Source of the DNA: Pseudomonadota bacterium
Lineage (GTDB): Bacteria; Desulfobacterota; Desulfobacteria; Desulfobacterales; JAHIVH01
Direction of reading: 5' to 3'
DNA length: 64,000 bases
Assembly (NCBI GenBank): GCA_018816735.1
Contig: JAHIVH010000129.1
Span: 64,479 to 128,478 of the forward strand
The translations under genes were made by a program, and so were the position numbers. A model generated the notes under the pieces. It was not told the origin of the DNA, did not search any database, and was given only the letters and a program-made list of their open reading frames with translations. Shown here piece after piece: positions 18,703 through 63,326 of the stretch; within the stretch, counting starts at the first letter, position 1; every line of letters begins with the position of its first letter.

Positions 18703-18765
18703 AGTTAATTTAACCGACCTGTTTTTTTATGTTTAGAGAAAGCAAGCTGCTTTTTTCATATGCGA

Positions 18766-20169: not shown

Positions 20170-20210
20170 TCAGCCCGCGCTTGTTAATCTATTTTATGTT
20201 GTCAGGCATG

Positions 20211-20237
20211 TCTGCCCTGAAAACGGTTCAGGGCAGA
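20211..20237. other. Intercistronic hairpin between prkA-like and DUF444 genes
   Basis: Perfect 11-bp stem TCTGCCCTGAA/TTCAGGGCAGA with 5-nt loop; no U-tract in the direction of the operon. Confidence 0.6.
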
Positions 20238-20276
20238 AAAAATAACCTGCCCGATTTGAGCCAATGATGCGGTGAA

Positions 20277-22337
20277 TTATTTTTCATCCTCCTGAGTACA
20301 GAAATACTCAATGGTTTTTTGCGCACACGTATTGCAATAATGAAGCTTTTCAAGCATGGTCTTGATCATGCGGTCATATAATTTCTGGTTTTCTTCATTG
20401 GTTCGGTTGGCAAGGGCGCCTATCAGGCTGCCTGCACCTGCAATGTCAGATTTCAGCCGGACATCGGTCACGGCTTTTACAAGTTCGAGGTTGTCCATAA
20501 AATCATAATCCGGATTCACGGATATTTTCTGTCCGTAAATTTTCCGGATTGACGTTCGGAAGGATTCCCGCTGTTCTTCTGTCTTCAGGCCGAGCTTTTC
20601 TTCGACGCTTTTGATATACCGTTCGTCTATTTTAAGGGCTCTCAATTCACCGGACTGGGGATCCTTGTATTTCCACATTTTATCCGGGCCGAGATTCTCC
20701 GCATCAATACCGATGATCATGTTCACGTAATTCATCACATCTTTTTTAATGGCAAGGGGTTCATCCATATATGCGTTGAACATTTCGGTCATAATCCGTT
20801 CACGGTACAAGCCTCTCGCGGTTTTCAGATCTTCCAGGAATTTTACCCTGTCGTTGGCATCGGTCACATAGTCCAGAATAATCCGTTCGATGGCCTTGAA
20901 AATATCATAGGCAAACATGCAATTGCCTTCATTGGTTTCTGAGCTTTCAATAAGAAGCTGGATGGCTCTGCCCAGGTTTCTCTGGCCCAGGCCTTTCTGC
21001 CCGAATCGTTTGGTGATATCCGGGTCCTGACTCAGTGTATCGATCACTTCGGAAAGGGTTTTGATACTTTTTTCGCCCGCTACCTCACCAGCAGCCAGCT
21101 TCATGGTTTCAATGGGTGTCAGCTTTTCTGAAATCGGCAGACGGGTCAAGGTAACGGCGATGGATGCCGCATAATTCAGGTTTGGATCCTGATGCAGTAT
21201 TTCCTTGTTAATGGTTGTCCGGGTTTCACTTCCAATGGAATACGCGGTAAGCTCTTTCTGCAGTTTGTAGTTCGTGTTGTGCGACACGTAGCAGATTCGG
21301 CACCGGTCCACAATGGGCGCTTCTTCTTTTTCAGCCAGGAAACGGTTGAATTCCGAATTGTTGCTCGTGGCGATGATCAATGTGTCAATCGGCCATTTGA
21401 AACCGTCTATTTCAATGGACCGGTTCTGAATGACACCCAGGTAAACCTGCACAAGGTCTTTTTTGTTTTTATAAATTTCATCGCTGAAATGAATACCGCC
21501 GCCCGCCACCCTGGCAAGGGCGCCTCTTCTCAGGTCAAAGCGGTAAGGGTTATTTGTATCTGTAATATGGAGAAGCCTTTGAATCGATTCTTCACCCAGA
21601 AGGTCTACTGCAGATGAGGTGATTTTATCCTTGGCCGGGTATTTGCCGGTTACGGTGCCGAGACTTTCTGTAAGCGGGACAGGAAGGATTTCTATAAATT
21701 TGAACATTTCTGACAAATCACCACCAGTAAATCGCCTGATATCATTCCACATATAACCGCTGCAAGCGCCGAGTGGCCTGTAGTTTTCATAAAGATCTTC
21801 GATTTCGTTGTCGGAGAATCCAATGGTTTTTCCAAGAAAAGTCTTTGTTTCGTTCGGATCATCAAAAACATTCATGGCAAGGATCATGGGATCTTCGTAA
21901 GTTTGGGATTCGATGGTGCTCAATCTCCCATAAGTTCCCAATTTGTCCATATTCATGAATTTGAACGTGTATTTACGGTTTTCCGGCCTGGAAAGAAATT
22001 CCCGGTATTTTGCACAGAGGAAGTCGACAAAAAAGGTTTTACCGTTTCCCGGCTCACCCACAAGCACATAGGCCATTTCCTTTGAAGAACCGCCTTCAGC
22101 CGCGTCTTTCACAAAAGAGACAAAGGAGTTGAGTTCGTCATACATACCGATGATATGTTTTTTGCTTGTTCTGAATATACTGAAGTCATAGGTTGTTTTG
22201 CCGTTTACAACCACTTTGCTGATGTCATTCTGGAGAATCATTCTTGAAACACCCTGGAAGGCGTTTTCAAACATTCTTTCACCCTGCTGGACGGCGATCA
22301 TGTGATTTTCAAACGAGCTGTTTTGCTTTTTTGCCAT
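20277..22337 (-). CDS. prkA: PrkA family serine protein kinase (paralog 2)
   Basis: VLVGEPGNGKTFFVDFLCAKYREF; RGALARVAGGGIHFSDEIYKNKKDLVQVYLGVIQNRSIEIDG; IIATSNNSEFNRF; RFGQKGLGQRNLGRAIQ. Confidence 0.93.
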   Translation of the reverse strand: MAKKQNSSFENHMIAVQQGERMFENAFQGVSRMILQNDISKVVVNGKTTYDFSIFRTSKKHIIGMYDELNSFVSFVKDAAEGGSSKEMAYVLVGEPGNGKTFFVDFLCAKYREFLSRPENRKYTFKFMNMDKLGTYGRLSTIESQTYEDPMILAMNVFDDPNETKTFLGKTIGFSDNEIEDLYENYRPLGACSGYMWNDIRRFTGGDLSEMFKFIEILPVPLTESLGTVTGKYPAKDKITSSAVDLLGEESIQRLLHITDTNNPYRFDLRRGALARVAGGGIHFSDEIYKNKKDLVQVYLGVIQNRSIEIDGFKWPIDTLIIATSNNSEFNRFLAEKEEAPIVDRCRICYVSHNTNYKLQKELTAYSIGSETRTTINKEILHQDPNLNYAASIAVTLTRLPISEKLTPIETMKLAAGEVAGEKSIKTLSEVIDTLSQDPDITKRFGQKGLGQRNLGRAIQLLIESSETNEGNCMFAYDIFKAIERIILDYVTDANDRVKFLEDLKTARGLYRERIMTEMFNAYMDEPLAIKKDVMNYVNMIIGIDAENLGPDKMWKYKDPQSGELRALKIDERYIKSVEEKLGLKTEEQRESFRTSIRKIYGQKISVNPDYDFMDNLELVKAVTDVRLKSDIAGAGSLIGALANRTNEENQKLYDRMIKTMLEKLHYCNTCAQKTIEYFCTQEDEK

Positions 22338-22460: not shown

Positions 22461-22916
22461 TTAATCTGAAACAGTGAACCGTCTTAAGTTCTTCTCTTTT
22501 GATGGTTCTGTGGAAATATATCCGATGGCACCTTCTGATTTTTCGATGTAGTCAATCAGTTGGTTTTCGTCAGTGAAAAATTTCGGCAGGTTGCCGTTTC
22601 CCACGAAGATTTGATACTTCCAGAAATTGATGAACTGGGCAGGTGTTTTTCTCAAATAGGCCTTTGTGAAATTTTTTTGGAGATCTGCCTGATCGTTTAC
22701 TGTGAGTGTAATGGCTTTTCCACCTGCCCATTTCTTCTTTTTTCCCATAAAGATATCCTTGATATCGTTTTTTGTCAGTGTGGATTCGAAGATATCCGGG
22801 CTGCCGATAAAAACAGGTTCCTGGCATCTGGATTCATTAACGGAAATGCCAAACAACACCCATATAAGCAGTATGGCCATAAATGATTTCAGGTGTGGTT
22901 TCCTAACAAGTATCAT
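22461..22916 (-). CDS. Small PstS-like periplasmic substrate-binding-domain protein (copy 1)
   Basis: Signal peptide; PVFIGSPDIFESTLTKNDIKDIFMGKKKKWAGGKAITLTVN...FTKAYLRKTPAQFINFWKYQIFVGNGNLPKFF...GAIGYIS; same family as 24281, 31118, 32961 and 63341. Confidence 0.85.
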   Translation of the reverse strand: MILVRKPHLKSFMAILLIWVLFGISVNESRCQEPVFIGSPDIFESTLTKNDIKDIFMGKKKKWAGGKAITLTVNDQADLQKNFTKAYLRKTPAQFINFWKYQIFVGNGNLPKFFTDENQLIDYIEKSEGAIGYISTEPSKEKNLRRFTVSD

Positions 22917-22925
22917 ATGTTTTTT

Positions 22926-24239
22926 TCAGAAATTATAAGATATCTTTGCCGCGAAAAGATACCAGTATCTGTTGGTTTCAAAATATTCATCCGGTTCAAT
23001 CTTCACAGTATCGTCAAGCTGGGCGCAACCGTCAAGATAATGACCTTCGAGTTTCAGGGAACAGTTTCTGTTAAAGTCAAACCTGAAGCTTAAACATGAG
23101 TCTTTCTGCCATGCAAAATAGTCAGGACGGCCTGCGTTGGTGCCCAGTCCGTTTCCTTTTTTGTCTTCTTCATTGGGATAAAAAACCGAATAATAGGCGC
23201 CGAATTTTAGCCAGTCCGTATGCCGGTACGAAAACATGTAATAAAAGCCGACAGAATTGTTTTCGAAGGGCACGGTTATCGGCAGGGTTGTATCCGGAAG
23301 AAAAAGAACATCAACCGTGATGTCAAAATCGTGAATGTGCTTAACGTGTTCAAATGAAAAGACCAAATCCTGCCAGCTATATTCAAAACCAAACAGAATT
23401 TCCTCAATATATCCATCATAATCAACCGGTATATTGGTAACAGAAATACTTTCGGGATTGATTGTTGGCGCCATATCCGAAAGTGCATCTTCTTTCCGGG
23501 ACTGCCAGAATATGTCATTTATGGTTTTTCCACCCAGGTTATATCCGAATTTGGCATATTGTCCGATCAGACGAAGTCCGGGCACAGGTGGTTCCCAGTT
23601 GAAGATCATATTGATGGCCGTGTCTGATTCGGAATACTCGGAATCCGTATGAAATGCTTTTGCAAGAACCCTTCCAACACCTGATTCTTTGTTTATATCC
23701 ATGATGCCGCACTGAATGGTATAATTGAATTCACCCAGTATATCCTGAAATTCCGGCATGGTTGGCCGCCAGTTTCCCCGAAATTCAAGACCTTTGGCTG
23801 AATTCAGACAATCACGGAAAGATTCCGGGTACACGCCTGATGGCAGAAAAATGGTTGGCCGGATCATATCGAGGTCCCTGGTATCCCCATGCAAACCAAA
23901 GGCTACCTTGTTGATACCTGCATGGAAACTCAGCCATTGTCTGTAATAGTAACTCGCACGGGCAAAATTCACAGTAATTTTGTCGTTACCGATATCCCCG
24001 AAATCACTGGCAAAAAACTGGATGCCCAGATGGAGGTCATCTGTTATCTGTGTGTTGAAGTTCAGTCCCATTTCGTTGAACTGAAATGTCCCGTTTTCCG
24101 AGTTCTGGATAAATTGATTGTGGTCGGTCTGCAAGAACCCCTGGGAGATGAAGCCGTGGATATGAATGTCGTTGTCTACGGCCATGGAAACGCTGCATGA
24201 AATAAGGATGATGGTAATAATGAAAACGTATTTTTTCAT
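22926..24239 (-). CDS. Porin-like outer-membrane beta-barrel protein (copy 1)
   Basis: Signal peptide; DIHGFISQGFLQTDHNQF...GTFQFNEMGLNFNTQITDDLHLGIQFFASDFGDIGND; C-terminal NRYWYLFAAKISYNF ending in Phe. Confidence 0.85.
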   Translation of the reverse strand: MKKYVFIITIILISCSVSMAVDNDIHIHGFISQGFLQTDHNQFIQNSENGTFQFNEMGLNFNTQITDDLHLGIQFFASDFGDIGNDKITVNFARASYYYRQWLSFHAGINKVAFGLHGDTRDLDMIRPTIFLPSGVYPESFRDCLNSAKGLEFRGNWRPTMPEFQDILGEFNYTIQCGIMDINKESGVGRVLAKAFHTDSEYSESDTAINMIFNWEPPVPGLRLIGQYAKFGYNLGGKTINDIFWQSRKEDALSDMAPTINPESISVTNIPVDYDGYIEEILFGFEYSWQDLVFSFEHVKHIHDFDITVDVLFLPDTTLPITVPFENNSVGFYYMFSYRHTDWLKFGAYYSVFYPNEEDKKGNGLGTNAGRPDYFAWQKDSCLSFRFDFNRNCSLKLEGHYLDGCAQLDDTVKIEPDEYFETNRYWYLFAAKISYNF

Positions 24240-24280
24240 GGTTTGACACTTATCATAAAATGATATGAAATTCGATTGAT

Positions 24281-24733
24281 TCAGTCGGCAATGATAAATT
24301 TTTTAACCTTTTTTTCTTTGGGTGGATCAGATGAGATATATCCGATGGCACCTTCTGATTTTTCGATGTAGTCAATCAATTGGTTTTCGTCAGTGAAAAA
24401 TTTCGGCAGGTTGCCGTTTCCCACAAAGATCTGATACTTCCAGAAATTGATAAACTGGGCAGGTGTTTTTCGCAAATACGCCTTTGTGAATGTTTTCTCG
24501 ATGTCTGTCTGGTCATTCACCGTGAGTGTAATGCCTTTTCCGCCCACCCACTTCTTCTTTTTTCCCATAAAGATATCCTTGATATCGTTTTTTGTAAGGG
24601 TGGATTCAAAAATATCCGGACTGCCGATAAAAACAGGCCCCTGGGATTTGGCAATTCCTGCAAAGCCAAAGACAAGCCAGATCGCTATTGGAATCATAAT
24701 TGAATTGAGATGAGGTGTCTTTGTATGCATCAT
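24281..24733 (-). CDS. Small PstS-like periplasmic substrate-binding-domain protein (copy 2)
   Basis: Core nearly identical to copy 1 (PVFIGSPDIFESTLTKNDIKDIFMGKKKKW...). Confidence 0.85.
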   Translation of the reverse strand: MMHTKTPHLNSIMIPIAIWLVFGFAGIAKSQGPVFIGSPDIFESTLTKNDIKDIFMGKKKKWVGGKGITLTVNDQTDIEKTFTKAYLRKTPAQFINFWKYQIFVGNGNLPKFFTDENQLIDYIEKSEGAIGYISSDPPKEKKVKKFIIAD

Positions 24734-24780
24734 GGCTTTTTTTATATTTTAAGGCGTTTGGCTTTCAAATCGCTTTCAGG

Positions 24781-26097
24781 TTAAAAGTTAAAGGAAAATT
24801 TTGCTGCAAAAAGATACCAGTACCTGTTAATATCATCGTAGCCGGCCTCATCCTGATCGTTCATAAAATTGATCTGCGATGTGCCGTCTATGTAATGTCC
24901 CTCGAGCTTCAGGCAACTGTTTCGATTGAAATCAAACCGGACAGACAGGCATGAATCTTTTTCCCATGCAAAACTTCTGGGAAGCCCTTTTTCTGCGTTG
25001 ATATGATTTCCACGTTTGTCATCTGTATCAGGGTAGAAAACCGTATAGTAGCCTCCCAGTTGAAGCCAGTCTGAAATGCGGTAGGATAACATGTAGTAAT
25101 ACCCCAGAACCGTGTTTTTCCAGGGCTCTGTCTCAGGATTGGGGGGCATCGCGTTTTTAAGGCCGGGATACAGGGTGATATCAAAATCCTGTAGGCTGAC
25201 CGATCGTTCGAGCGTGACCACCAGGTTTTGCCTGGTATATTCCATGCCACATGTAATGATCTCGAAATCGCCATCAATATCCACCGGTACATTGCCAACA
25301 ATCAGGTTTTCTTTTAAATAGTCCTTAAGCGCCTGGTCTTCTATGTCCTCAAGGACTTTTGTTTTCTGGCTTGCCCAGAAAGCATCGTCATGGGTTGTGC
25401 CACCCAGATTATATCCAAGGAAGGCGTATTGCCCCTGTAATCTCAAACCGGGAATTGGTGTTTCCCAGCACAGGACGAGGTTGGGCGCCTTGTCTGCTGA
25501 TGAATAGCCGGCGTTAATGTGAAATTCATGTGAAAATCCTTTTCCGATACCGGTATCTTGTGAGATATCGATAATGCCATATTGAAAGCAATATGAAATC
25601 ACCCCGAGATCGATCAGGTCAGGTCTGTAGCTGCCTTTAAGTTCAATGCCTTTTGCTGAATCCAGGCTGTCCCTGTAAACTTCAGGGTAGACACCCATAG
25701 GAAGAAGGATATTTGGCCGAATCATCTCAAGGTCTCGCGTGTCTCCATAAAAACCGGATTTGACTTTACTGATTCCCACATCCAGGATCAGCCATTGTCT
25801 GAAGTAATACGATGCCATTCCATAATTGATACTGATTTTATCGTTTCCGGCGTCGCCGAAATCATATGCAAAGAGCTGGATACCCATGTGCAGGTCATCT
25901 GTAATCTGGTTACTGAAATTCAGCCCCATTTCGTTGAACTGGAATGTTCCGTCTTTTGTATCTTTGATGAATGGATTTTCAGTTGATTTAAGAAACCCCT
26001 GGGTGACAAATCCATGAATATCAATGGCGGTATCCAAAGCGTAAACCATATTATATGAAAGAGTGAGAATCAGTGTTGTGAAAAGGATTTTTTTCAT
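24781..26097 (-). CDS. Porin-like outer-membrane beta-barrel protein (copy 2)
   Basis: Likely start MKKILFTTLILTLSY at 26097; DIHGFVTQGFLKSTENPF...GTFQFNEMGLNFSNQITDDLHMGIQ; C-terminal NRYWYLFAAKFSFNF. Confidence 0.85.
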   Translation of the reverse strand: MKKILFTTLILTLSYNMVYALDTAIDIHGFVTQGFLKSTENPFIKDTKDGTFQFNEMGLNFSNQITDDLHMGIQLFAYDFGDAGNDKISINYGMASYYFRQWLILDVGISKVKSGFYGDTRDLEMIRPNILLPMGVYPEVYRDSLDSAKGIELKGSYRPDLIDLGVISYCFQYGIIDISQDTGIGKGFSHEFHINAGYSSADKAPNLVLCWETPIPGLRLQGQYAFLGYNLGGTTHDDAFWASQKTKVLEDIEDQALKDYLKENLIVGNVPVDIDGDFEIITCGMEYTRQNLVVTLERSVSLQDFDITLYPGLKNAMPPNPETEPWKNTVLGYYYMLSYRISDWLQLGGYYTVFYPDTDDKRGNHINAEKGLPRSFAWEKDSCLSVRFDFNRNSCLKLEGHYIDGTSQINFMNDQDEAGYDDINRYWYLFAAKFSFNF

Positions 26098-26248
26098 AAA
26101 ATTCCGTTTAGCACAAAAAAATGACACATGCTATTTTTTTTATTCACATTTAAATAAATCGCAATTCATTGTTGTTTTTTTCGCCAAATGTGTGATAGAC
26201 CCTTTTAGAAATGTAAAATTTTTGTAAAAGTATAGATTCCTGCCATAT

Positions 26249-26266
26249 CTGGTTTTTAAATTGCAT
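26249..26266 (+). promoter_or_regulatory. Sigma-54-like promoter (CTGGTTTTTAAATTGCAT)
   Basis: Exact GG-N10-GC spacing with TTGCA at -12; 33 bp upstream of the activase ORF; -24 box is degenerate. Confidence 0.4.
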
Positions 26267-26298
26267 GTCGCCCAGACTTTCTTCGGAAAGGAGGAAAC

Positions 26299-29200
26299 AT
26301 GAACCTTCATTCAAATATATTGGGAGTGGATATCGGGTCTGTCTCTGTATCACTCGTTGAAATGACGCCGGAAAAAAAGATCATCCGGACCGAATACCTG
26401 TTTCATCATGGGAGTATCAGGGAGACACTGAAACAGGCAATTTCCCGATTTCGCCTTCAGGACATCTGCGGCATCGCATCCACATCTTCCACACCGCTGG
26501 TCCTGAAAGTCAACCGTCAATATGACAATCGCATTGCTGTCATGAGGGCATGCCGGTTTTTTCATGGGACTGTCAGTGGCATTCTCATCGTCGGTGGAGA
26601 AAGATTTGGCCTGATTCAGTTTGATGATGAGGGGAATTATTTAAAATTTAAATCCAACACGTCATGTGCGGCCGGTACCGGCAGTTTTCTTGACCAGCAG
26701 GCCGAGCGGCTGGGGCTTGAAAATATCGAAGCCTTAAGCGACATGGCTGATGAAAATATCGACACGGTTCCCCAGATTGCGACCCGCTGTTCGGTGTTTG
26801 CCAAGACCGATCTGGTTCATGCCCAGCAGGAAGGGTATTCGCTGAATCAGATCGCAGATGGCCTGTGCAGAGGCCTTGCGAAAAATATCGTTGACACCCT
26901 TTTTGGCAGTGGCAGGAAAGAGGGCCTTGTCGTATTCAGTGGCGGGGTCTCCCGTAACACTGCCGTGGTCCGGCACATTCGGTCCATGATCAACCAGGAA
27001 ATTCAGATAGAAAAGACTTTGTATGGCGCAGCCGGGGCGGCCCTGCATCTTCTTGATGAAATGCTTTTAAAAGACAGGATCAGTGCCAGAGCGGTAGCCG
27101 ACATCCTTCTTCCGGTAAATGATGTCAAAAAAAATTACTATCCTCCCCTGACACTTCAAAAAAGCATTTACCCGGAATTCACAAGTTTTGAAACATTTAA
27201 ATATCATCCCGCCGGGCTTGGTCCAAACGAAAATGCCTCGGTCGAAGTGGATATCTATGAGAAGCTGAATAATAAACCCCTGACGTCCTATTTGGGTATT
27301 GATGTCGGGTCGACCAGTACCAAAGCAATATTAATGGGGAGAGATAAACATGTACTGGCAGGATTTTATACACGAACCGCAGGGCGGCCTGTGGACGCTA
27401 TCAGAAATTTATTTGCGGCCATTCATTTCACCATGGAAAAATATCAAAATGAGCTTCATATCCTTGGTGCTGGCACCACCGGGGCCGGCAGAAAGTTCGT
27501 GGGAAAGATTATCGGAGCTGACCTTGTCATTGATGAGATAACCGCTCATGCACGGGCAGCGGTTGAGATTGATCCGGCCGTGGATACCATCATTGAAATC
27601 GGCGGACAGGACTCCAAATTTACGACGCTTAAAAATGGGCAGGTGGTTTTTTCTGTCATGAATACGGTTTGCGCCACAGGCACGGGGAGCTTTATCGAGG
27701 AGCAGGCAAAAAAGCTTTCCTGCCCGCTTTCCGAATATTCCCGGAGAACGGAAAACAGGCCTTCACCAATGGTAAGTGACCGGTGTACGGTTTTCATGGA
27801 AAGAGATCTCAATCATTATCTTTCAGAAGGATATGCCAGGGAAGATGTTCTTGCTTCGGTTCTTCATGCGATTGTTGAAAATTATCTTTCAAAGGTTGCT
27901 GTGGAGGGAAATATAGGAAATGTCGTGTTTTTTCAAGGGGCAACTGCCAAGAACAAGTCTCTGGTTGCGGCGTTCGAACAGCGGCTTCAAAAGTCCATAC
28001 AGGTATCCCGTTACTGCCATCTGACAGGTGCGTTGGGCACAGCGCTTTCTCTTTTTGATCAACAGGCTGAAAAGAGCCAGTTTGAAGGTATTGACCTTTA
28101 TAAAAAAGAAATCCCCATCTCTTCCGAAGTGTGCGGATTATGCACAAATCATTGCAAAATTACCCTGGCTGACAGAGGAGAAAAAAAGGTCGCCTATGGA
28201 TTTCTCTGTGGCCGGGATTATGACACAGAACGGTTTGTGGACAATAACCGGTCCGGGTTTGATCTGGTCAAAAACAGAAAAACCGTGTGGAACTATAAAT
28301 CCGGCAGTGAGATTAAATACGAGATGACCATTGGATTACCCGAAGGGGTGTATATGAAAGAAGACCTGGTCTTCTGGAAATACTTTTTTGATAAACTATC
28401 CATACCCACCCTGTCAGGAGATGGCATCAAGGATGCGGTAAAAAAGGGAAAGGAAATGGCCGGCGCAGAATTCTGTGCGCCAATGGCGGCTTTTCATGCT
28501 CACGTGGCGAATCTCCTTGAACGCACCGATTATGTGTTTTTGCCATACTACCTTGAACGAAAGGTGGAGGAGAAAAACAGGCGGCGGCATTTTTGCTACT
28601 ACTCACAGTTTGCCCCTGCCTCTATTTCAGCCACAATACCTCCAAACTTACGCTATAAATTGTTAATGCCATTGGTCAGCTATCTTTACAGTTCGTTTCA
28701 TGACAAGGTTCAACTCTATCGAATGTTTAAATCAATTTTGCCCGGCAAAATCGGATTTTTAGACGTGTCATCTGCCTATGATGCTGCCATTTCCTTCAGA
28801 AAAACGTGTGAGCAAAAGCTCAGGAAAATATATCAGCAGGCATCCGGAACAGGAGATTTTCACGTGGTACTGATGGGAAGACCGTACACCGTCCTGTCGC
28901 CGGACATGAACAAGCGGATTCCGAATATTTTTGGAAAACTGGGCGTCAAGGCATTTTTTCAGGATATGCTTGCCTATTCGTCGGATCATATCCGGTCCCT
29001 TGAACCGCTGCTGGATGAAATCCCCTGGAATTATGCGGCGCGCATTCTGGAATCCGCCCTGGTTGTGGCCAGAAAACAGGGGGCATACCCGGTCCTTGTA
29101 ACGTCCTTCAAGTGCACACCAGATGCTTTTGTCGTCGATTATTTCAAGAAGATCATGGCATTGTACGACAAACCACATCTGATTCTGCAGCTTGACGACC

Positions 29201-30531
29201 ATGATTCAAGTGTTGGGTATGAAACCCGAATTGAAGCGGCATTACGGTCTTTTAAAAATCATTATCAATTTGATGCACCACTTGAATCTGAAAAGTTTTC
29301 TCCTATCGTTATTCATTCCCGGATAAAAACACTTGATAGACGGACCCTGTTGCTGCCAAACTGGGATAACCTCTCCATGCGTCTTGTTCAGGCTGCCTTG
29401 ATAAAGGAAGGTATCGATGCAAGACTTCTTTCTGAAAGTGCAGATGGTATCCGGAAAAGTCTTCGTCATAATACCGGTCAATGTATTCCGCTTAATATCG
29501 TTGCCCAGGAATGCACTGACTATATTGAAAGGCATAACCTTAACCCGGAGGAAACCGCCCTGTGGACCGTGAAGTCTTCCCTTGCATGTAATCTCCCGCT
29601 CTTTCCCCTTCATATCAAGAATCTGTTCAGCACATGGGGCAAGGGGATGGAGAAAACCGAAGTTTATGCCGGAGCACTTTCTTTTATGGATATTTCGGTT
29701 AAACTTCCTCCAAATATTTATTTTGCCTATATGTTTGGCGGTATGATCCGGAAAATCGGATGTCAGATACGTCCGTATGAGCAGATCAAAGGAGAAACGG
29801 ACAGAACCATTGAGAAAAGCATCCATATTCTGAGCGATGCATTTCTGGGCCGTCGATCCAAGGAAGATGCCCTTCTGGAGATCTTGAACCGTTTTCAGGT
29901 GATTTCCATGCACAACAAAAAAGATTTCAGGCCCAAAGTGGCGATTTTTGGCGATTTGTATGTTCGGGATAACACGGTGATGAATCAGGACCTCATTCAC
30001 TTTATTGAAGAGAATGGCGGAGAAGTTGTGGCAACACCCTACAGCTCTTACTTAAAAATGATTTGCAAGCCCTATCTGCAGAAATGGTTCCGGGAAGGGC
30101 TGTACTTTAATGTGCTTTCCGGAAAGGCATTGATGGTTGCCATGAAACAGCTTGAAAAAACCTATGATAGGTATTTTCAGAAGATTCTCAAAGAACCCGG
30201 GATATCTTATGACGAGCCTTTACAAAAAATTTTTAGAGATTTCAATATCAAGGTTGAGAACAACGGAGAATCCATTGAGAACATTCTGAAAGTGTATTAT
30301 ACCCAAAAGCAGTATCCGGATATCTCCCTGTTCGTACAGACCAGCCCGGCATTCTGCTGCCCGTCTCTGGTCACAGAGTCCATGGCTGACGAGATTGAAA
30401 GACAGTTTGGCGTTCCCATTGTGTCTGTCACCTATGACGGCACAGGCGGAAATAAAAATGAGGCCATTATTCCGTATCTGCAATATCCAAAGACCCAGTC
30501 CGGGAGATGGCAAAACAAGGCGCAGGGGTGA
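26299..30531 (+). CDS. Giant acyl-CoA dehydratase activase (two BadF/BadG/HgdC-type ATPase domains plus DUF2229/HgdB-like regions)
   Basis: Two actin-like activase signatures: ILGVDIGSVSVSLVEM...CAAGTGSFLDQQAERLG and YLGIDVGSTSTKAILMG...IGGQDSKFTTLKNGQVVFSVMNTVCATGTGSFIEEQA; C-terminal AFCCPSLVTESMADEIE. RBS GGAAAGGAGGAAAC. Confidence 0.93.
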   Translation: MNLHSNILGVDIGSVSVSLVEMTPEKKIIRTEYLFHHGSIRETLKQAISRFRLQDICGIASTSSTPLVLKVNRQYDNRIAVMRACRFFHGTVSGILIVGGERFGLIQFDDEGNYLKFKSNTSCAAGTGSFLDQQAERLGLENIEALSDMADENIDTVPQIATRCSVFAKTDLVHAQQEGYSLNQIADGLCRGLAKNIVDTLFGSGRKEGLVVFSGGVSRNTAVVRHIRSMINQEIQIEKTLYGAAGAALHLLDEMLLKDRISARAVADILLPVNDVKKNYYPPLTLQKSIYPEFTSFETFKYHPAGLGPNENASVEVDIYEKLNNKPLTSYLGIDVGSTSTKAILMGRDKHVLAGFYTRTAGRPVDAIRNLFAAIHFTMEKYQNELHILGAGTTGAGRKFVGKIIGADLVIDEITAHARAAVEIDPAVDTIIEIGGQDSKFTTLKNGQVVFSVMNTVCATGTGSFIEEQAKKLSCPLSEYSRRTENRPSPMVSDRCTVFMERDLNHYLSEGYAREDVLASVLHAIVENYLSKVAVEGNIGNVVFFQGATAKNKSLVAAFEQRLQKSIQVSRYCHLTGALGTALSLFDQQAEKSQFEGIDLYKKEIPISSEVCGLCTNHCKITLADRGEKKVAYGFLCGRDYDTERFVDNNRSGFDLVKNRKTVWNYKSGSEIKYEMTIGLPEGVYMKEDLVFWKYFFDKLSIPTLSGDGIKDAVKKGKEMAGAEFCAPMAAFHAHVANLLERTDYVFLPYYLERKVEEKNRRRHFCYYSQFAPASISATIPPNLRYKLLMPLVSYLYSSFHDKVQLYRMFKSILPGKIGFLDVSSAYDAAISFRKTCEQKLRKIYQQASGTGDFHVVLMGRPYTVLSPDMNKRIPNIFGKLGVKAFFQDMLAYSSDHIRSLEPLLDEIPWNYAARILESALVVARKQGAYPVLVTSFKCTPDAFVVDYFKKIMALYDKPHLILQLDDHDSSVGYETRIEAALRSFKNHYQFDAPLESEKFSPIVIHSRIKTLDRRTLLLPNWDNLSMRLVQAALIKEGIDARLLSESADGIRKSLRHNTGQCIPLNIVAQECTDYIERHNLNPEETALWTVKSSLACNLPLFPLHIKNLFSTWGKGMEKTEVYAGALSFMDISVKLPPNIYFAYMFGGMIRKIGCQIRPYEQIKGETDRTIEKSIHILSDAFLGRRSKEDALLEILNRFQVISMHNKKDFRPKVAIFGDLYVRDNTVMNQDLIHFIEENGGEVVATPYSSYLKMICKPYLQKWFREGLYFNVLSGKALMVAMKQLEKTYDRYFQKILKEPGISYDEPLQKIFRDFNIKVENNGESIENILKVYYTQKQYPDISLFVQTSPAFCCPSLVTESMADEIERQFGVPIVSVTYDGTGGNKNEAIIPYLQYPKTQSGRWQNKAQG

Positions 30532-30570
30532 TATGCCTGATTTGCGCATATCATGAACTGGAGGATAACT

Positions 30571-31050
30571 ATGACAAAAAGTCAATTTTTTACCTGTTTG
30601 ATAATTCTTCTATCCATTTGTTATTATTCCCCCCTGCCTTTACGGGCTGACGAAAAAACAGGGTTGTCTGACGGTCAGTCTATTTATGTGCCAGTTTATT
30701 CATATATTTACAGTGGCAACCGGGAGCAACCTTTTTTATTGACTGTAACTTTGAGTATACGAAACATTGACCCCAGGCAGCAAATTGAAATCAGCGTGAT
30801 CGACTATTATGCGACACAAGGGAAGTTATTAAAAAAATATCTGGATAAACCAGTTATTTTAAAACCATTAGAATCATTACGCTATATCATACCAGAAAAA
30901 GACAAAAGCGGAGGGTCCGGTGCCAATTTCATTGTTGAATGGAAATCGGGCCACTTTGCTAATCCACCTATTGTTGAATCAATAATGATTGGTACTCAGA
31001 ATCAGCAAGGTGTTTCTTTTACCTCTCGTGGACGGGAAATTATTAAATAG
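30571..31050 (+). CDS. DUF3124-like exported protein
   Basis: Signal peptide; GQSIYVPVYSYIYSGNREQPFLLTVTLSIRNIDPRQQIEISVIDYYATQGKLLKKYLDKPVILKPLES; RBS ahead of ATG at 30571. Confidence 0.75.
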   Translation: MTKSQFFTCLIILLSICYYSPLPLRADEKTGLSDGQSIYVPVYSYIYSGNREQPFLLTVTLSIRNIDPRQQIEISVIDYYATQGKLLKKYLDKPVILKPLESLRYIIPEKDKSGGSGANFIVEWKSGHFANPPIVESIMIGTQNQQGVSFTSRGREIIK

Positions 31051-31117
31051 AAGTACTCTCATAAAAGAGAATATCCATATTGCAGACACCAAAGACAGAC
31101 AAGGCCTAATGTATTCT

Positions 31118-31570
31118 TTAATCTGAAATGATAAATCTTCTGACGTCTTTTCCTTCAGGCGGGTCAGTTGAAATAAATCCAATGGCGCCATCCGTGGATT
31201 GGATATAGTCAATCAACTCTTTTTCATTGGAAAAAAATTTGGGAAATCTCCCCTGGCCCACAAAGACCATATTCTTCCAGAAGGTGATAAACTGGGCGGG
31301 TGTTTTTTGCAAATAGACTGAGGTGAACGATATCTGCACTTCAGGGGTATCATTGACGGTCAGTTTGATGGCATGGCCATTCAGCCATTTTTTTTTCTTT
31401 CCCAGATAGATATTTCTTATCTCTTTTTTGGTGAGAGTGGATTCAAAAATGTCCGGACTGCCTATGAGTACAGGATCACCTGATATCGCAGGTTTTGGAA
31501 ACATCAGGCAGACTCCCAGAAGGAGAAAGAGAAGAAAGGCATTGAAATGGTGTTTGGTGACTATTGTCAT
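31118..31570 (-). CDS. Small PstS-like periplasmic substrate-binding-domain protein (copy 3)
   Basis: DPVLIGSPDIFESTLTKKEIRNIYLGKKKKWLNGHAIKLTVN...LQKTPAQFITFWKNMVFVGQGRFPKFF...GAIGFISTDPP. Confidence 0.85.
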   Translation of the reverse strand: MTIVTKHHFNAFLLFLLLGVCLMFPKPAISGDPVLIGSPDIFESTLTKKEIRNIYLGKKKKWLNGHAIKLTVNDTPEVQISFTSVYLQKTPAQFITFWKNMVFVGQGRFPKFFSNEKELIDYIQSTDGAIGFISTDPPEGKDVRRFIISD

Positions 31571-31590
31571 GTTTTTATGATTTTCAAAAT

Positions 31591-32904
31591 TTAAAAATTA
31601 AACGATAGTTTTGCCGCAAACAAATACCAGTATCTTTGGGTGTCAAAATATCCTTCAGGGTCAAGATTCACAATATAGTCGAGTTGCGTACCCCCATCCA
31701 TATAATGGGCTTCGAGTTTTAATGAACTATGTCTGTTGAAATCGAATTCCAGGGACAGGCACGAATCCTTCTGCCAGGCAAAATAACTGGGCCGGTCAAT
31801 AAATACCAGATTGTCTTTTCCTTTTTTATCGTCTTTCAAAGGGTAAGTTACGGCATAGTAAGCCCCCATCTTTAGCCAGTCATAAAATTGGTAGGATGCC
31901 GCATAGTAATAGCCCAGACCTTTATTATTCAGTGAATCGGTTTTTTTCAGGATGCTGTCCGAAAGTCTGGCATCTATGGTATAATCGAAGGCCTGGCCGT
32001 AAATCGCTTCTTCAAAAGCGATAACGAGATTTTTTCGGGTGTATTCCGCGCCATAGACAATCATTGAAATATCACCGGAAAAATTGATTGGAACGTTTGT
32101 GATTACAAGGCTGTCTTCGAGGAATGAGCGGTATGCATCATCTTCTATGCCAAGAAGCATGTCCTCTTTTGTCTGTTTCCAGAATATATCGTCTTTTGTT
32201 GTGCCATTTAATTGATATCCTATCTGGACATACTGGCCCTGAATCCGCAATCCAGGCATCGGCGTGTCCCACGTCAGAAGCAGGTTGAAAGACGTGTCTG
32301 TGCTGGACGAGAGGGTATCTGTATGGCCTCTTTTTGCCAGGATTCTTTCTATGCCGGACCCTTTGGGAATGTCAATAAAACCGTATTGAAAGCGATAGGA
32401 GAGATCACCCATTTCCAGTGCCAGGAGGGATGGATACATGTTTCCATGAATTTCAACACCTTTTGCCGAATTGATACAGTCCCTGTATGCTTCCGGGTAA
32501 ACACTTGTCGGCAGGAAGACATATGTTCGAAGCATATCAATATCCCGTGTGTCCCCGTAAAATCCAAAAGCACCCCGATTGATACCGGCTTTGATGCATA
32601 GCCATTCCCTGAAATAATAGTCAACATTCGCATGGCTGATGGTAATTTCATCGTTTCCAATATCCCCAAAATCACTGGCAAAGAACTGAATGCTCATGAG
32701 AAGGGAGTCGGATAATTGGGTATTGAAATTCAATCCCATTTCATTAAACTGAAAAGTGCCGTCCTCTGTATTCTGGATGAAATTGTTGTGGTCGGTCTTT
32801 AAAAACCCCTGAGCAACGAATCCATGGATATCCAGCTCGTCATCCATGGCCATTGACAGATTAACTGAAAACAGGACAATGAGAATGCAAACCAGTTTTT
32901 TCAT
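31591..32904 (-). CDS. Porin-like outer-membrane beta-barrel protein (copy 3)
   Basis: LDIHGFVAQGFLKTDHNNFIQNTEDGTFQFNEMGLNFNTQLSDSLLMSIQFFASDFGDIGNDEI; C-terminal QRYWYLFAAKLSFNF. Confidence 0.85.
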   Translation of the reverse strand: MKKLVCILIVLFSVNLSMAMDDELDIHGFVAQGFLKTDHNNFIQNTEDGTFQFNEMGLNFNTQLSDSLLMSIQFFASDFGDIGNDEITISHANVDYYFREWLCIKAGINRGAFGFYGDTRDIDMLRTYVFLPTSVYPEAYRDCINSAKGVEIHGNMYPSLLALEMGDLSYRFQYGFIDIPKGSGIERILAKRGHTDTLSSSTDTSFNLLLTWDTPMPGLRIQGQYVQIGYQLNGTTKDDIFWKQTKEDMLLGIEDDAYRSFLEDSLVITNVPINFSGDISMIVYGAEYTRKNLVIAFEEAIYGQAFDYTIDARLSDSILKKTDSLNNKGLGYYYAASYQFYDWLKMGAYYAVTYPLKDDKKGKDNLVFIDRPSYFAWQKDSCLSLEFDFNRHSSLKLEAHYMDGGTQLDYIVNLDPEGYFDTQRYWYLFAAKLSFNF

Positions 32905-32960
32905 ACAGTGAACATATCATGAATCTAAATGTCCTGCCATTTGTTTTTTTTCGTCCCGGC

Positions 32961-33485
32961 TCATTCAGTTAGGGTGATGATTTTTAATTTTTTCCCTTCA
33001 GGCGGTTTTTGAGACAAATAGCCGATAGCGCCACTTGTCTTTTCGATGTAGTCCATCATTTCCTCTTCACTTGAAAATGCCTTGGGAAAGCGTCCCTGGC
33101 CTACAAATACCAGATGTTTACAGAAGTTCAAAAACTGGGCGGGTGTTTTATTGATATATCTTATCATAAATGTTTCATGAATCGTTGAGTGATACATAAC
33201 AGTGAGAACGATTTCTTTACCATCCGTCCATTTTCGTTTTTTTTCCAGAAAGATATCCCGGATTTCTTTTTTGGTCAGGGTTGATTCAAAAATGTCGGGA
33301 TTGCCAATAATAATGACCTCATTTTCGTCAGCTTTTATCTGAACTGAAAATCCGGAAAGGAGAATATACACCACAGCGGACAGAAAGATGAATCTGATTT
33401 TTGGCTGAACAGGGTAATGGGAATTCATATGACTTTCGATTAAAGGATCAACTGTACCTTCATTCCGTATATCGTTATTAAACAA
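32961..33485 (-). CDS. Small PstS-like periplasmic substrate-binding-domain protein (copy 4; start may be 33428)
   Basis: VIIIGNPDIFESTLTKKEIRDIFLEKKRKWTDGKEIVLTV...NKTPAQFLNFCKHLVFVGQGRFPKAF...GAIGYLSQKPPEG. Confidence 0.85.
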   Translation of the reverse strand: MFNNDIRNEGTVDPLIESHMNSHYPVQPKIRFIFLSAVVYILLSGFSVQIKADENEVIIIGNPDIFESTLTKKEIRDIFLEKKRKWTDGKEIVLTVMYHSTIHETFMIRYINKTPAQFLNFCKHLVFVGQGRFPKAFSSEEEMMDYIEKTSGAIGYLSQKPPEGKKLKIITLTE

Positions 33486-33494
33486 TGGTGTCGC

Positions 33495-34817
33495 TTAAAA
33501 ATTGTATGACAATTTTGCTGCAAACAGATACCAGTAGCGATGTGTTTTTGAGTAATCATCCAACGGTTTGACATAATCGAGCTGGGCTCCACCATCGATG
33601 TAATGGCCCTCAATTTTGAAAATACTGTTGGGACTCAAATCAAACCGGGCGGCAATGCATGAATCTTTCTGCCAGGCGAAGTAATCCGGGTTGCCAAGAT
33701 TGGTTCCGCCGCCCCCTTTTTTGTTGTCTTTGTCAGGATAGTAGACCGTATAATATCCGCCTATTTTCAGCCAGTCTGAAATCTGGTATGAGCCCATGTA
33801 GTAATACCCCAGGGTGGGGTTTTCAAATGTATAATCAAAGACACTATCTTCACCTGCGGCCTTGTATTTGATACGGGTCTTGTATTTCATATTAAAGAAA
33901 ACCTGCTCGGCGGCAAGTGTCAGGCCTCTCCACGTGAATTCAGCACCGATGATATACATGGAAACGTCACCTGAGTAGCTGACCGGCATATCGCCAATAA
34001 TAACGGCACTGCTGATGGCATTTTTCAGATCCTGGGACAAATCCGGGTATAATTGATCGATCGCCTGAATTTTGATTTCGTCCCAGAATTCATCATCAAA
34101 GGTTTTTCCGGAGAGAAACACGCCGTATTCTGAATACTGGCCCTGAAGCCGCAATCCCGGAACAGGGGTTTCCCAGCCCAGAACCAGATTGTATGATGTA
34201 TCGGAAGTCGATTCCTCAGGGTCTGTATGAAGGGTCATGGCAAGTACATGGCTGACACCGGAATCTTTTGGAATATCCATGATGCCATACTGGATCTTGT
34301 AATAGAATTCACCCAGAGGTTCCATGAATTTCAGGGGTTCAGGATATCCGCTGCCATAAATTTCAAAGCCTTTGGCCGAATGTATGGAATCCCTGAATGC
34401 TTCGGTATAAACCCCCTGGGGAAGCAGCACAAAGGTCCTCAGCATGTCCATGTCCCGGCTGTCACCATAAAGCCCATAAGAAACCTTGCTCTTGCCCGCT
34501 CTGAATGTAAATTGCTGATTGACATAGTAACTTACGCCAGCATGGTTGATGGCGATTCTATCATTTCCCAGTCCACCGAAATCATAGGCAAAGAACTGGA
34601 GGCTGAAATCAAGCCCGTCAGAAAGTCTCTTGTTGAAATTGAGACCCATTTCATTGAATTCAAAGGAGCCGTCTTCGGTTTCGGCAATGAAGTCGTTATG
34701 ATCCGTCTTCAGATATCCCTGAGTGATGAACCCATGAATGTCGATTGCGTCATGATCAGTCGCAAAACCGGCTTCAGTATAAAAAAGGATTATGACAAGA
34801 ATGAGTATTTTTTTCAT
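33495..34817 (-). CDS. Porin-like outer-membrane beta-barrel protein (copy 4)
   Basis: Likely start MKKILILVIILF at 34817; AIDIHGFITQGYLKTDHNDFIAETEDGSFEFNEMGLNFNKRLSDGLDFSLQFFAYDFGGLGND; C-terminal HRYWYLFAAKLSYNF. Confidence 0.85.
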   Translation of the reverse strand: MKKILILVIILFYTEAGFATDHDAIDIHGFITQGYLKTDHNDFIAETEDGSFEFNEMGLNFNKRLSDGLDFSLQFFAYDFGGLGNDRIAINHAGVSYYVNQQFTFRAGKSKVSYGLYGDSRDMDMLRTFVLLPQGVYTEAFRDSIHSAKGFEIYGSGYPEPLKFMEPLGEFYYKIQYGIMDIPKDSGVSHVLAMTLHTDPEESTSDTSYNLVLGWETPVPGLRLQGQYSEYGVFLSGKTFDDEFWDEIKIQAIDQLYPDLSQDLKNAISSAVIIGDMPVSYSGDVSMYIIGAEFTWRGLTLAAEQVFFNMKYKTRIKYKAAGEDSVFDYTFENPTLGYYYMGSYQISDWLKIGGYYTVYYPDKDNKKGGGGTNLGNPDYFAWQKDSCIAARFDLSPNSIFKIEGHYIDGGAQLDYVKPLDDYSKTHRYWYLFAAKLSYNF

Positions 34818-34964
34818 CGTTTGCCGGTTTTGGGTTTTGCTCATTTAAAGGGTTTCAGTATCCTGTTAATGATTTGTGGATGATATGATCAATCCTGTCC
34901 CCCTGTCAAGAATGCAATTAAAAATTTCATGGAGAATAAGCTATTTACAGGTGATCGTCCCTGG

Positions 34965-35933
34965 TCAGGATATGATCACCCGTAACATCATATCGCCTTT
35001 TTCGCTCCTGGCCGGTTGTTTGCCCATGCCTTTTAAACGGAGAATTTTTCCTGAGGAAATACCCGGAGGAATGCTGATTCTGTATAGCCTTTTATAATAT
35101 CCCCAGGGGATGTTCACGAGTTTGGTGGTGCCGGAAACCGCTTCGAAAGGTGAGATAACGATTGTGCCGTAAAGATTCGGATCTTCTCCCACGCCGGCTG
35201 TTTGAATGACCTGCAGCCGTGGGGTCTTTTTTTTCATCGTGACAGTCCTTAATCTTTCGGTAAAACCGGTATCCGGTATTCTGGGTGTCAGCTTTAAAAG
35301 AAGAATCCCGCAAAGAAATCCGCCTATGTGAGCCCACCAGGCAATACCACCGCCCATGGCATCACTTCCTGTAGCATTGATAAATTGCATCAGAAACCAG
35401 AATCCCAGGAAAAAGAAAGCTGGTATTTCGATGAACCAGGGAATAATGATGATCGGTATCAGGGTCAGGATTCTGGATCGGGGATAAAGGATTAAATACG
35501 CACCCATAACTCCGGCAATGGCACCGCTCGCACCTATGGTGGGCACATTCGCATGGATATTCAGAAACAGGTGGAAAAGGCCGGAACCAATTCCGCAAAG
35601 GAGATAGAAGGCCAAGTACCTGATGGAACCGAAATGATCTTCCACATTGTCTCCAAAAATATAAAGGCTCCACATATTCGACAGAAGATGCCAGAAACCG
35701 CCATGTAAAAACATATAGGAGACAAGTGAAAACAGTTTCTCCGGCATGGAAAAATGGATCGTGATGGCGGGCACGGAAAATTTTGCAGGCACAATCCCGT
35801 AGATATAGATAAACTGACCCAGGTTATCTCCCTGCATGTACTGGAAGATAAAGAAAAGCACATTTAAAAGAATCAGGGTATTATTGACAACCGGATAGTT
35901 CCGGGAGGGGATCGTATCTCGAATCGGGATCAT
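34965..35933 (-). CDS. Rhomboid family intramembrane serine protease with C-terminal DnaJ CTD-like domain
   Basis: Rhomboid core with GASGAIAGVMGAYL, HGGFWHLLSNMWSLYIFGDNVEDHFG, WWAHIGGFLCG; C-terminal ~70 aa LYGTIVISPFEAVSGTTKLVNIPWGYYKRLYRISIPPGISSGKILRLKGMGKQPARSEKGDMMLRVII resembles DnaJ CTD. Confidence 0.9.
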   Translation of the reverse strand: MIPIRDTIPSRNYPVVNNTLILLNVLFFIFQYMQGDNLGQFIYIYGIVPAKFSVPAITIHFSMPEKLFSLVSYMFLHGGFWHLLSNMWSLYIFGDNVEDHFGSIRYLAFYLLCGIGSGLFHLFLNIHANVPTIGASGAIAGVMGAYLILYPRSRILTLIPIIIIPWFIEIPAFFFLGFWFLMQFINATGSDAMGGGIAWWAHIGGFLCGILLLKLTPRIPDTGFTERLRTVTMKKKTPRLQVIQTAGVGEDPNLYGTIVISPFEAVSGTTKLVNIPWGYYKRLYRISIPPGISSGKILRLKGMGKQPARSEKGDMMLRVIIS

Positions 35934-62039: not shown

Positions 62040-63326
62040 CTAAAAGGTATATGTCACTTTTGCAGCATAAAGGAACCAGTACCTGTCCACATCCGCTACA
62101 AATGGGTCATCAGGCTTTCTGGGGTTTTCGGCGGACGTATAGGCGCCGAACCCGTCATTGTAAGCCACTTCGAGTTTCAGGAGCCAGTATTCATTGACGT
62201 CAAACCGCAGGGAAAGTGTTGTCGTCTTGAGCCAGGCTTCAAAATCATTGCCGAATACCTTTCTATTCGATAACAGAAGTCTGGTATTATAGTCCGTTAC
62301 AGGGTTTACATCTTTACCGTGTCTGTTATCCACGTCCGGGTAAAATTCCGAATAGGACACGCTTGCTTTAAAAAATTCACTGAAATCATAATTCAAGGCC
62401 CCATACCATCCTTGAAATGTTCGGGGTGGCCTGTCTTCATATCCCAAACCCAAATCCCATTTGCCGTCCATTGATCCTGATAGGAATTCACCTATCAGGG
62501 ATAGTTTTTCCCGTTGATATTCTGTTGAAACAAAATACGAGTCAAAGTCGTATTCATACTCAAATTTCGTCAATCCTGCACGATCTGCAAGTGCAGAGTT
62601 CAGGCTTCCCGAAATCAATGTATTTTTTCCTTCAATCCACCCGGACTTGATTTTAAATCCTGCCAGAGGCGCATACCATGTTACGCGATACGCTTGGGTA
62701 GTTGAGGGTTTAACATTGTTGATCTCCAGATTCAGAATGGAAAATGCCTGTTTAAATGCATAGGCAATGCCTGTATCCGGGGAAAAATTCGGCTCGCCTA
62801 CACTGAATTCATAGGCGAGAAGTCCTGCTCTCCCCAACAGAATCCGGCCATAAAACTCAACACCGCGATAACTTGAAAACGCATCCCGGAACAGCTCGCC
62901 ATAGGTGCTCTGGGGAAGCAAAATGCATGTTCGCAGCATATCCAGATCTCTTGTGGCCGAAAAAAAGCCGGAGAACCCTTTGTGCTTGCCGATCCGCACT
63001 CCCAGCCAGTCCCGCCAGTGGTAGTCGGCATTGGCCCAGTCCACGACGATTTCATCGTTGCCGTTTATGCCCATGTCCCTTGCGAAGAACTGAACACCCA
63101 GTCGAAGCCTGTCTGTCACGTCTGTCGTGAAATTGATGCCCATTTCATTGAATTGAAAGGTGCCATCTTCAGTTTCAGCCAGATAGTTGTTTTTATCTGT
63201 CTGTAAATAGCCCTGGGAAATAAACCCGTGAATATCGACCTGGCCATACTGATCTTCGGCCAGACTATTTTTTGAAAAAATGATGACAGCAAACAGAATA
63301 AGCGTTGTTGTTTTTTTTAGGTTCAT
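62040..63326 (-). CDS. Porin-like outer-membrane beta-barrel protein (copy 5)
   Basis: VDIHGFISQGYLQTDKNNYLAETEDGTFQFNEMGINFTTDVTDRLRLGVQFFARDMGINGND; C-terminal DRYWFLYAAKVTYTF. Confidence 0.85.
   Translation of the reverse strand: MNLKKTTTLILFAVIIFSKNSLAEDQYGQVDIHGFISQGYLQTDKNNYLAETEDGTFQFNEMGINFTTDVTDRLRLGVQFFARDMGINGNDEIVVDWANADYHWRDWLGVRIGKHKGFSGFFSATRDLDMLRTCILLPQSTYGELFRDAFSSYRGVEFYGRILLGRAGLLAYEFSVGEPNFSPDTGIAYAFKQAFSILNLEINNVKPSTTQAYRVTWYAPLAGFKIKSGWIEGKNTLISGSLNSALADRAGLTKFEYEYDFDSYFVSTEYQREKLSLIGEFLSGSMDGKWDLGLGYEDRPPRTFQGWYGALNYDFSEFFKASVSYSEFYPDVDNRHGKDVNPVTDYNTRLLLSNRKVFGNDFEAWLKTTTLSLRFDVNEYWLLKLEVAYNDGFGAYTSAENPRKPDDPFVADVDRYWFLYAAKVTYTF

Follow-up and report, generated by a model that had tools for sequence, protein, structure and literature searches.

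Paired porin and half-PstS genes as a probable sensory input cassette in a desulfobacterial genome

Why should a bacterium keep, side by side and many times over, a gene for an outer-membrane porin and a gene for a small periplasmic protein related to PstS? A stretch of 64,000 nucleotides from a member of the Desulfobacterales (Pseudomonadota bacterium, JAHIVH01; assembly GCA_018816735.1, contig JAHIVH010000129.1, positions 64,479 to 128,478 of the forward strand), here called the window, raises this question, as an earlier note made from its letters alone had reported four such pairs on the minus strand and a fifth at 62-64 kb. Using mechanical gene calls, with sequence and prediction as the whole of our evidence, we find that signal input across the cell envelope is the best-supported function of these pairs. 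In many bacteria the pair stands beside an inner-membrane signal receptor and so looks like a sensing front end, not a nutrient transporter. The pairs are probably copies of an exchangeable sensory input cassette of the PstS-CtpL kind, with a dedicated porin, half a binding protein and swappable outputs. We found no description of a module of porin, half-PstS and transducer in the open-licence literature, and the cassette looks as if it has not been described.

Results

Porin and small-protein pairs in the window

All ten open reading frames (ORFs) of the five reported pairs are found in their places, and the motifs that had been quoted from the N- and C-termini are real. The genes are as follows (aa, amino acids).

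22461..22916, (-): pair 1 small single-lobe PstS-like periplasmic protein, 151 aa (ORF and Pfam)
22926..24239, (-): pair 1 porin, 437 aa, predicted 16-stranded barrel (ORF and AlphaFold2/Foldseek)
24281..24733, (-): pair 2 small PstS-like protein, 150 aa
24781..26127, (-): pair 2 porin, 448 aa; the real start is probably an ATG 10 codons inside the ORF
31118..31570, (-): pair 3 small PstS-like protein, 150 aa
31591..32904, (-): pair 3 porin, 437 aa
32961..33485, (-): pair 4 small PstS-like protein, 174 aa from TTG; the real start is probably an internal ATG
33495..34844, (-): pair 4 porin, 449 aa; weak Porin_O_P match, below cut-off
62040..63326, (-): pair 5 porin, 428 aa
63341..63787, (-): pair 5 small PstS-like protein, 148 aa, upstream of its own porin; PF12849 over cut-off

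Relative to the first copy, the window porins are 34-54% identical and the small proteins 30-75%. The porin gene lies 5' of the small-protein gene in pairs 1-4, the order that had been given for these four, but the order is reversed in pair 5. A sixth pair follows directly past the window end (C77:130909-132577). Between pairs 5 and 6, shortly beyond the end of the window, sits a hybrid histidine kinase of PAS, histidine kinase and receiver domains (L083 5629-7797, contig C77), in which no match to the common four-helix sensor domain described below was found.

The pairs are numerous and have diverged as units

Five pairs, though present, greatly understate the size of the family. Searches with the five window small proteins and the five window porins revealed 28 genes for the small protein and about 31 for porins of this family in the focal genome (6.5 Mb in 135 contigs, 94.5% complete, 1.3% contamination), the porin fragments on contigs C117 and C96 being counted as a single split gene. 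Every small-protein gene with intact flanks (26/26) has a porin gene no more than 91 bp away on the same strand, which excludes chance pairing; the remaining two small-protein genes lie at contig ends. The gap between the two genes has a median of 12-13 bp, and their order varies between loci. Because the loci often occur at or near contig ends (C117, C96, C2, C101, C35, C48, C108 and C10), 28 may be a lower bound, and the paralogs themselves may break the assembly.

For the 25 intact pairs of the focal genome, the distance matrices of the two pair members are correlated with a Mantel r of 0.79 (p 1e-4; the maximum among 9999 permutations was 0.27), and leaving out the four tandem window pairs gives r 0.81. 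Each pair thus behaved as one unit in duplication and divergence. This paralogy may reflect diversification of ligands.

The pairing is old and widespread

Of 40 genomes from this order, 13 contain the cassette, and none apart from the focal genome has more than seven of the porins or more than seven of the small proteins (0-7 in close relatives). In a sample of 148 genomes of the phylum, all seven that encode porins of this family encode the small protein too, in an adjacent gene. A porin-based search of GTDB yielded 49 loci in Desulfobacterota, Acidobacteriota, Calditrichota, Planctomycetota, Myxococcota and Aminicenantes, and a protein search of plasmid records added Gamma- and Betaproteobacterial versions. 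Pairing extends to 51 of the 53 small proteins in the GTDB loci, which had been found by their porins, and to 22 of 27 in the relatives, bearing out the earlier suggestion of a modular unit of porin and binding protein. The spread across lineages indicates that the pairing is old. The order of the two genes differs between loci and yet their linkage is kept, which argues for functional coupling rather than an inherited neighbourhood.

An apparent fusion of the two proteins in a Kofleriaceae locus (L117) was discarded as an artefact: a long high-GC frame overlies the differently framed porin gene, and the start of the small protein falls within this long frame. On an Alteromonas mediterranea plasmid (NZ_CP018030.1, 126690-139046; L203), about 0.7 kb separates a pair from a type IV CRISPR (csf) locus.

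Transducers are the recurrent third partner

The two-part view of the unit had missed a recurrent third partner. In several phyla, the neighbours of the gene clusters are often transmembrane transducers, namely chemoreceptors (MCP), histidine kinases, GGDEF/EAL proteins or SpoIIE phosphatases. MCP, HATPase, GGDEF and SpoIIE profiles, each made from members that Pfam annotates, detected a transducer in 54 of the 172 cluster flanks outside the focal genome, as against 33 of the 543 other genes at these loci (odds ratio 7.1, p 4e-16). The enrichment is seen in the GTDB set alone (p 2e-8), and in a phylum set for which the small protein was the sole selection criterion, a transducer stands beside 13 of 18 clusters (p 2e-5). 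Annotated neighbours include the order porin, periplasmic binding protein (PBP), MCP in Pseudoalteromonas and Massilia, and a porin-PBP pair followed by a GGDEF/EAL (EAL-domain) protein in Caballeronia.

A signature of the ATPase of ATP-binding cassette (ABC) transporters was found in only 1 of 214 immediate cluster flanks, in line with the earlier claim that no pair has an ABC partner, and inspection by eye showed no recurrent transporter among the neighbours. Of the two functions in the original proposal of an uptake or sensing unit, sensing is supported and uptake, for which no transporter recurs, is not. The earlier note had also named, as grounds for refutation, a sensor kinase that regularly completes a known Pst-like system; this holds only in part, as transducers are present but belong to no known Pst-like system.

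A predicted four-helix sensor domain co-occurs with the cassette

Most transducers of the Desulfobacterota loci have in common an N-terminal domain of about 210 residues, for which no Pfam match was found in the main set. The outputs joined to it vary: MCP, histidine kinase (with receivers or Hpt) and SpoIIE. The domain is predicted to form a bundle of two long membrane-spanning and two short helices, with a predicted local distance difference test (pLDDT) score of 89. Foldseek returned weak matches to the ligand domains of Tsr, NarQ and Vc1313, none at E <= 0.001, and on such matches alone we claim no family for it.

Among the 40 same-order relatives, the sensor domain is present in 11 of the 13 cassette genomes, and at high score in none of the 27 others (p 3e-8); two of these 27 hold fragments of it (E 3e-4 to 6e-4). 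The focal genome has seven receptors with the domain (two MCP, three kinase and two SpoIIE), of which two adjoin a pair (on contigs C20 and C21) and five are unlinked. Since several receptors are unlinked to pairs, the co-occurrence at the genome level goes beyond adjacency. One receptor (L231) carries dCache_3 in place of the four-helix domain. The receptor domain thus differs between lineages, so that the cassette can apparently work with more than one type of receptor. A periplasmic binding-protein gene is here associated with the gene of a receptor that has a helical ligand domain, the association by which binding-protein-assisted receptors such as those of the MBP-Tar, TorT-TorS and PstS-CtpL types are recognised.

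The small protein is half a PstS

The homology that underlies the name PstS-like is genuine, but it is confined to lobe 2 of PstS: the small protein matches positions ~90-192 of the 267 of Pfam PF12849 (PBP_like_2), with E-values of 4e-7 for pair 5 and up to 4e-9 elsewhere in the genome, and weaker, below cut-off, for pairs 1-4. PstS structures are matched in the corresponding lobe. The mature protein is a single lobe of about 125 residues, as against the two lobes and ~270-320 aa of PstS-type binding proteins; judged by eye, both the small protein and the porin have a signal sequence. The phosphate-binding S-G-T motif is missing from at least 100 of 109 small proteins, any SGT occurring in 9 and one preceded by S or G in 3, and the full-length PstS of the focal genome has RDESSGT in its lobe 2. 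A histidine near the S-G-T region is conserved in 80 of the 109, where gaps in the alignment leave the exact equivalence of this residue uncertain. With one lobe and no S-G-T motif, ordinary PstS-like binding of oxyanions, as had been proposed, is not supported, and homology alone should not be taken to justify the label 'phosphate-binding protein'.

Among the PBP_like_2 matches of the focal genome, the largest is a TupA-type protein. A divergent branch of small proteins occurs in genome G035 (L201 4999-5481 and L202 5218-5736), where the gene overlaps by 4 bp an upstream gene of 441-450 aa that the porin profile does not recognise.

The porin is a predicted 16-stranded barrel

The porin and small-protein genes of pair 1 share a frame, and their stop-codon read-through chain was modelled with AlphaFold2 from an alignment in which only five distinct rows span both proteins. 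In the model, the porin forms a barrel of 16 strands and the small protein an alpha/beta lobe that is well ordered (pLDDT 84; predicted template modelling score, pTM, 0.81). With the barrel making up about 70% of the chain, this pTM gives a hint that the lobe is placed non-randomly on the porin. Foldseek matched the barrel to OmpF-class porins (best E 6e-13), and the C-terminal residue of the porin is F. No curated family reached its cut-off in the window porins; only that of pair 4 came near Porin_O_P (PF07396; E 0.002, 17.9 bits against a cut-off of 20.9). A Pseudoalteromonas relative matches Porin_4.

Discussion

Weighing the sensory reading against its rivals

Several of our observations count against a sensory cassette. 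In the focal genome, a transducer is immediately beside only 6 of 25 clusters, four of these six neighbours are of the histidine-kinase type without a demonstrated common sensor domain, and only seven receptors were detected for the 28 pairs. Outside the focal genome, roughly half of the loci have no adjoining transducer, and two cassette genomes (G020 and G026) are without a detected sensor domain. The sensor profile was seeded from receptors adjoining the cassette, and the GTDB and relatives locus sets derive in part from the same metagenome-assembled genomes (MAGs) and so are not independent. Finally, a single lobe is unable to close round a ligand in the manner of a Venus flytrap, and pTM gives no more than a hint of docking between lobe and porin.

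Could the pairs serve uptake after all, the porin admitting a solute and the small protein passing it to an unlinked inner-membrane transporter, while transducers only regulate the process or steer the cell to the substrate? Uptake loci typically have porin and binding-protein pairs, most pairs of the focal genome have no transducer beside them, and half-PstS is homologous to a transport protein. The near absence of ABC ATPases from the flanks, the lack of a recurrent transporter among the neighbours inspected and a one-lobed protein without the phosphate motif nevertheless make this account unlikely. Less probable again, in our judgement, is envelope surveillance, in which the small protein would monitor assembly or occupancy of the porin like RseB/CpxP-type regulators and the four-helix domain would read a protein and no ligand. 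A single lobe without a closed ligand site, a receptor domain that is a plain four-helix bundle, and the strict pairing and co-divergence of small protein and porin would all suit such a role, but the frequent MCP outputs better fit taxis toward external cues than stress control, and 28 diverged copies are too many for quality control. Tandem paralogs, wide divergence and an unusually high copy number in one genome might instead suggest that amplified porins diversify against phages or other attack on the surface, with the small protein as a chaperone or plug. We regard this as very improbable, for it leaves unexplained the transducers in many lineages, the co-occurrence of the sensor domain with the cassette in genomes, and the retention of a PstS-derived partner with nearly every copy.

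Comparison with known systems

In phosphate chemotaxis of Pseudomonas aeruginosa, a PstS-type protein acts as ligand carrier for the chemoreceptor CtpL, whose ligand domain does not bind the ligand directly; that PstS is full-length and two-lobed, is a component of an ABC transporter, and has an affinity for phosphate in the nM range (PMC4926252). By analogy, the half-PstS would bring the signal to a receptor domain that itself binds no ligand. Unlike PstS-CtpL, which has no dedicated porin and one type of output, the cassette has one lobe, no ABC partner, a porin of its own, four kinds of output and many paralogs, and in the focal genome the inputs outnumber the receptors. With PstS/PBP_like_2 proteins (PF12849, TIGR02136) the small protein has the lobe 2 homology in common, and its proteobacterial relatives are named 'phosphate ABC transporter substrate-binding protein' at NCBI; it differs in being half the size, without lobe 1, S-G-T or PstCAB. 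The porin resembles the OmpF/OmpT-class and OprP/OprO (PF07396) porins in its 16 predicted strands, its C-terminal Phe and its OmpF-class Foldseek match, but unlike them it has a fixed genetic partner. Likewise, the sensor domain has the layout of the 4HB_MCP, Tsr, NarQ and Vc1313 domains, with two long membrane-spanning and two short helices ahead of HAMP/MCP, histidine kinase and similar outputs, but lacks a Pfam match and co-occurs with the cassette by genome. YfiBNR, which consists of an outer-membrane protein, a small periplasmic protein and a membrane signalling enzyme, has the same three-part layout. Its protein families are unrelated to those of the cassette, and a family scan of the window proteins gave no YfiR-family match. 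MifA/MifB of Vibrio fischeri, an early candidate for comparison, was dropped, as the papers found concern proteins that modulate cyclic di-GMP (c-di-GMP).

A possible route for the signal

If the pairs are sensory cassettes, a solute would pass the dedicated porin or alter its state, the half binding protein would sense the solute or this state at the periplasmic side of the porin, and it would then relay the signal to the transducer by way of the latter's periplasmic domain, a four-helix bundle or in some cases dCache. The response of the cell would be set by the output domain of the lineage, be it taxis, two-component, c-di-GMP or phosphatase signalling. In the focal genome, the diverged input pairs, about 28 in number, probably act on a small set of receptors that they share, seven of which are detected. 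That the single lobe might share its recognition site with the porin or with receptor helices is our suggestion, not a result. A fuller version, which we offer tentatively and consider doubtful, is a three-part relay spanning the envelope, in which the porin would be a selective gate, the ligand site of half-PstS would be complete only with the porin or the receptor, and about 28 inputs would converge on about seven shared receptors as a combinatorial array instead of one receptor per ligand.

Should the sensory cassette prove true, database entries named 'phosphate ABC transporter substrate-binding protein' would include mislabelled parts of a widespread signalling module, and permeation of the outer membrane would be tied directly to chemotaxis, two-component and c-di-GMP signalling. 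Orphan receptors would gain a testable partner, and the focal genome would show, as a natural experiment, how a sensory repertoire expands.

Other genes of the window

The two tandem groups of pairs are separated by genes on the opposite strand (26299-31050, +) for a 1410-aa BadF/BcrA-DUF2229 activase-like protein and a DUF3124 protein. After pair 1 come PrkA-DUF444-SpoVR genes (17038-22337, -). A porin-PBP pair lies directly ahead of genes of the PrkA-DUF444-SpoVR kind in the same-genus MAG DeMMO2_31 (L131/L184) as well, and this synteny is therefore conserved. An unusual combination is encoded by a single ORF at 34965-35933 (-), namely a rhomboid protease domain with a DnaJ C-terminal domain after it.

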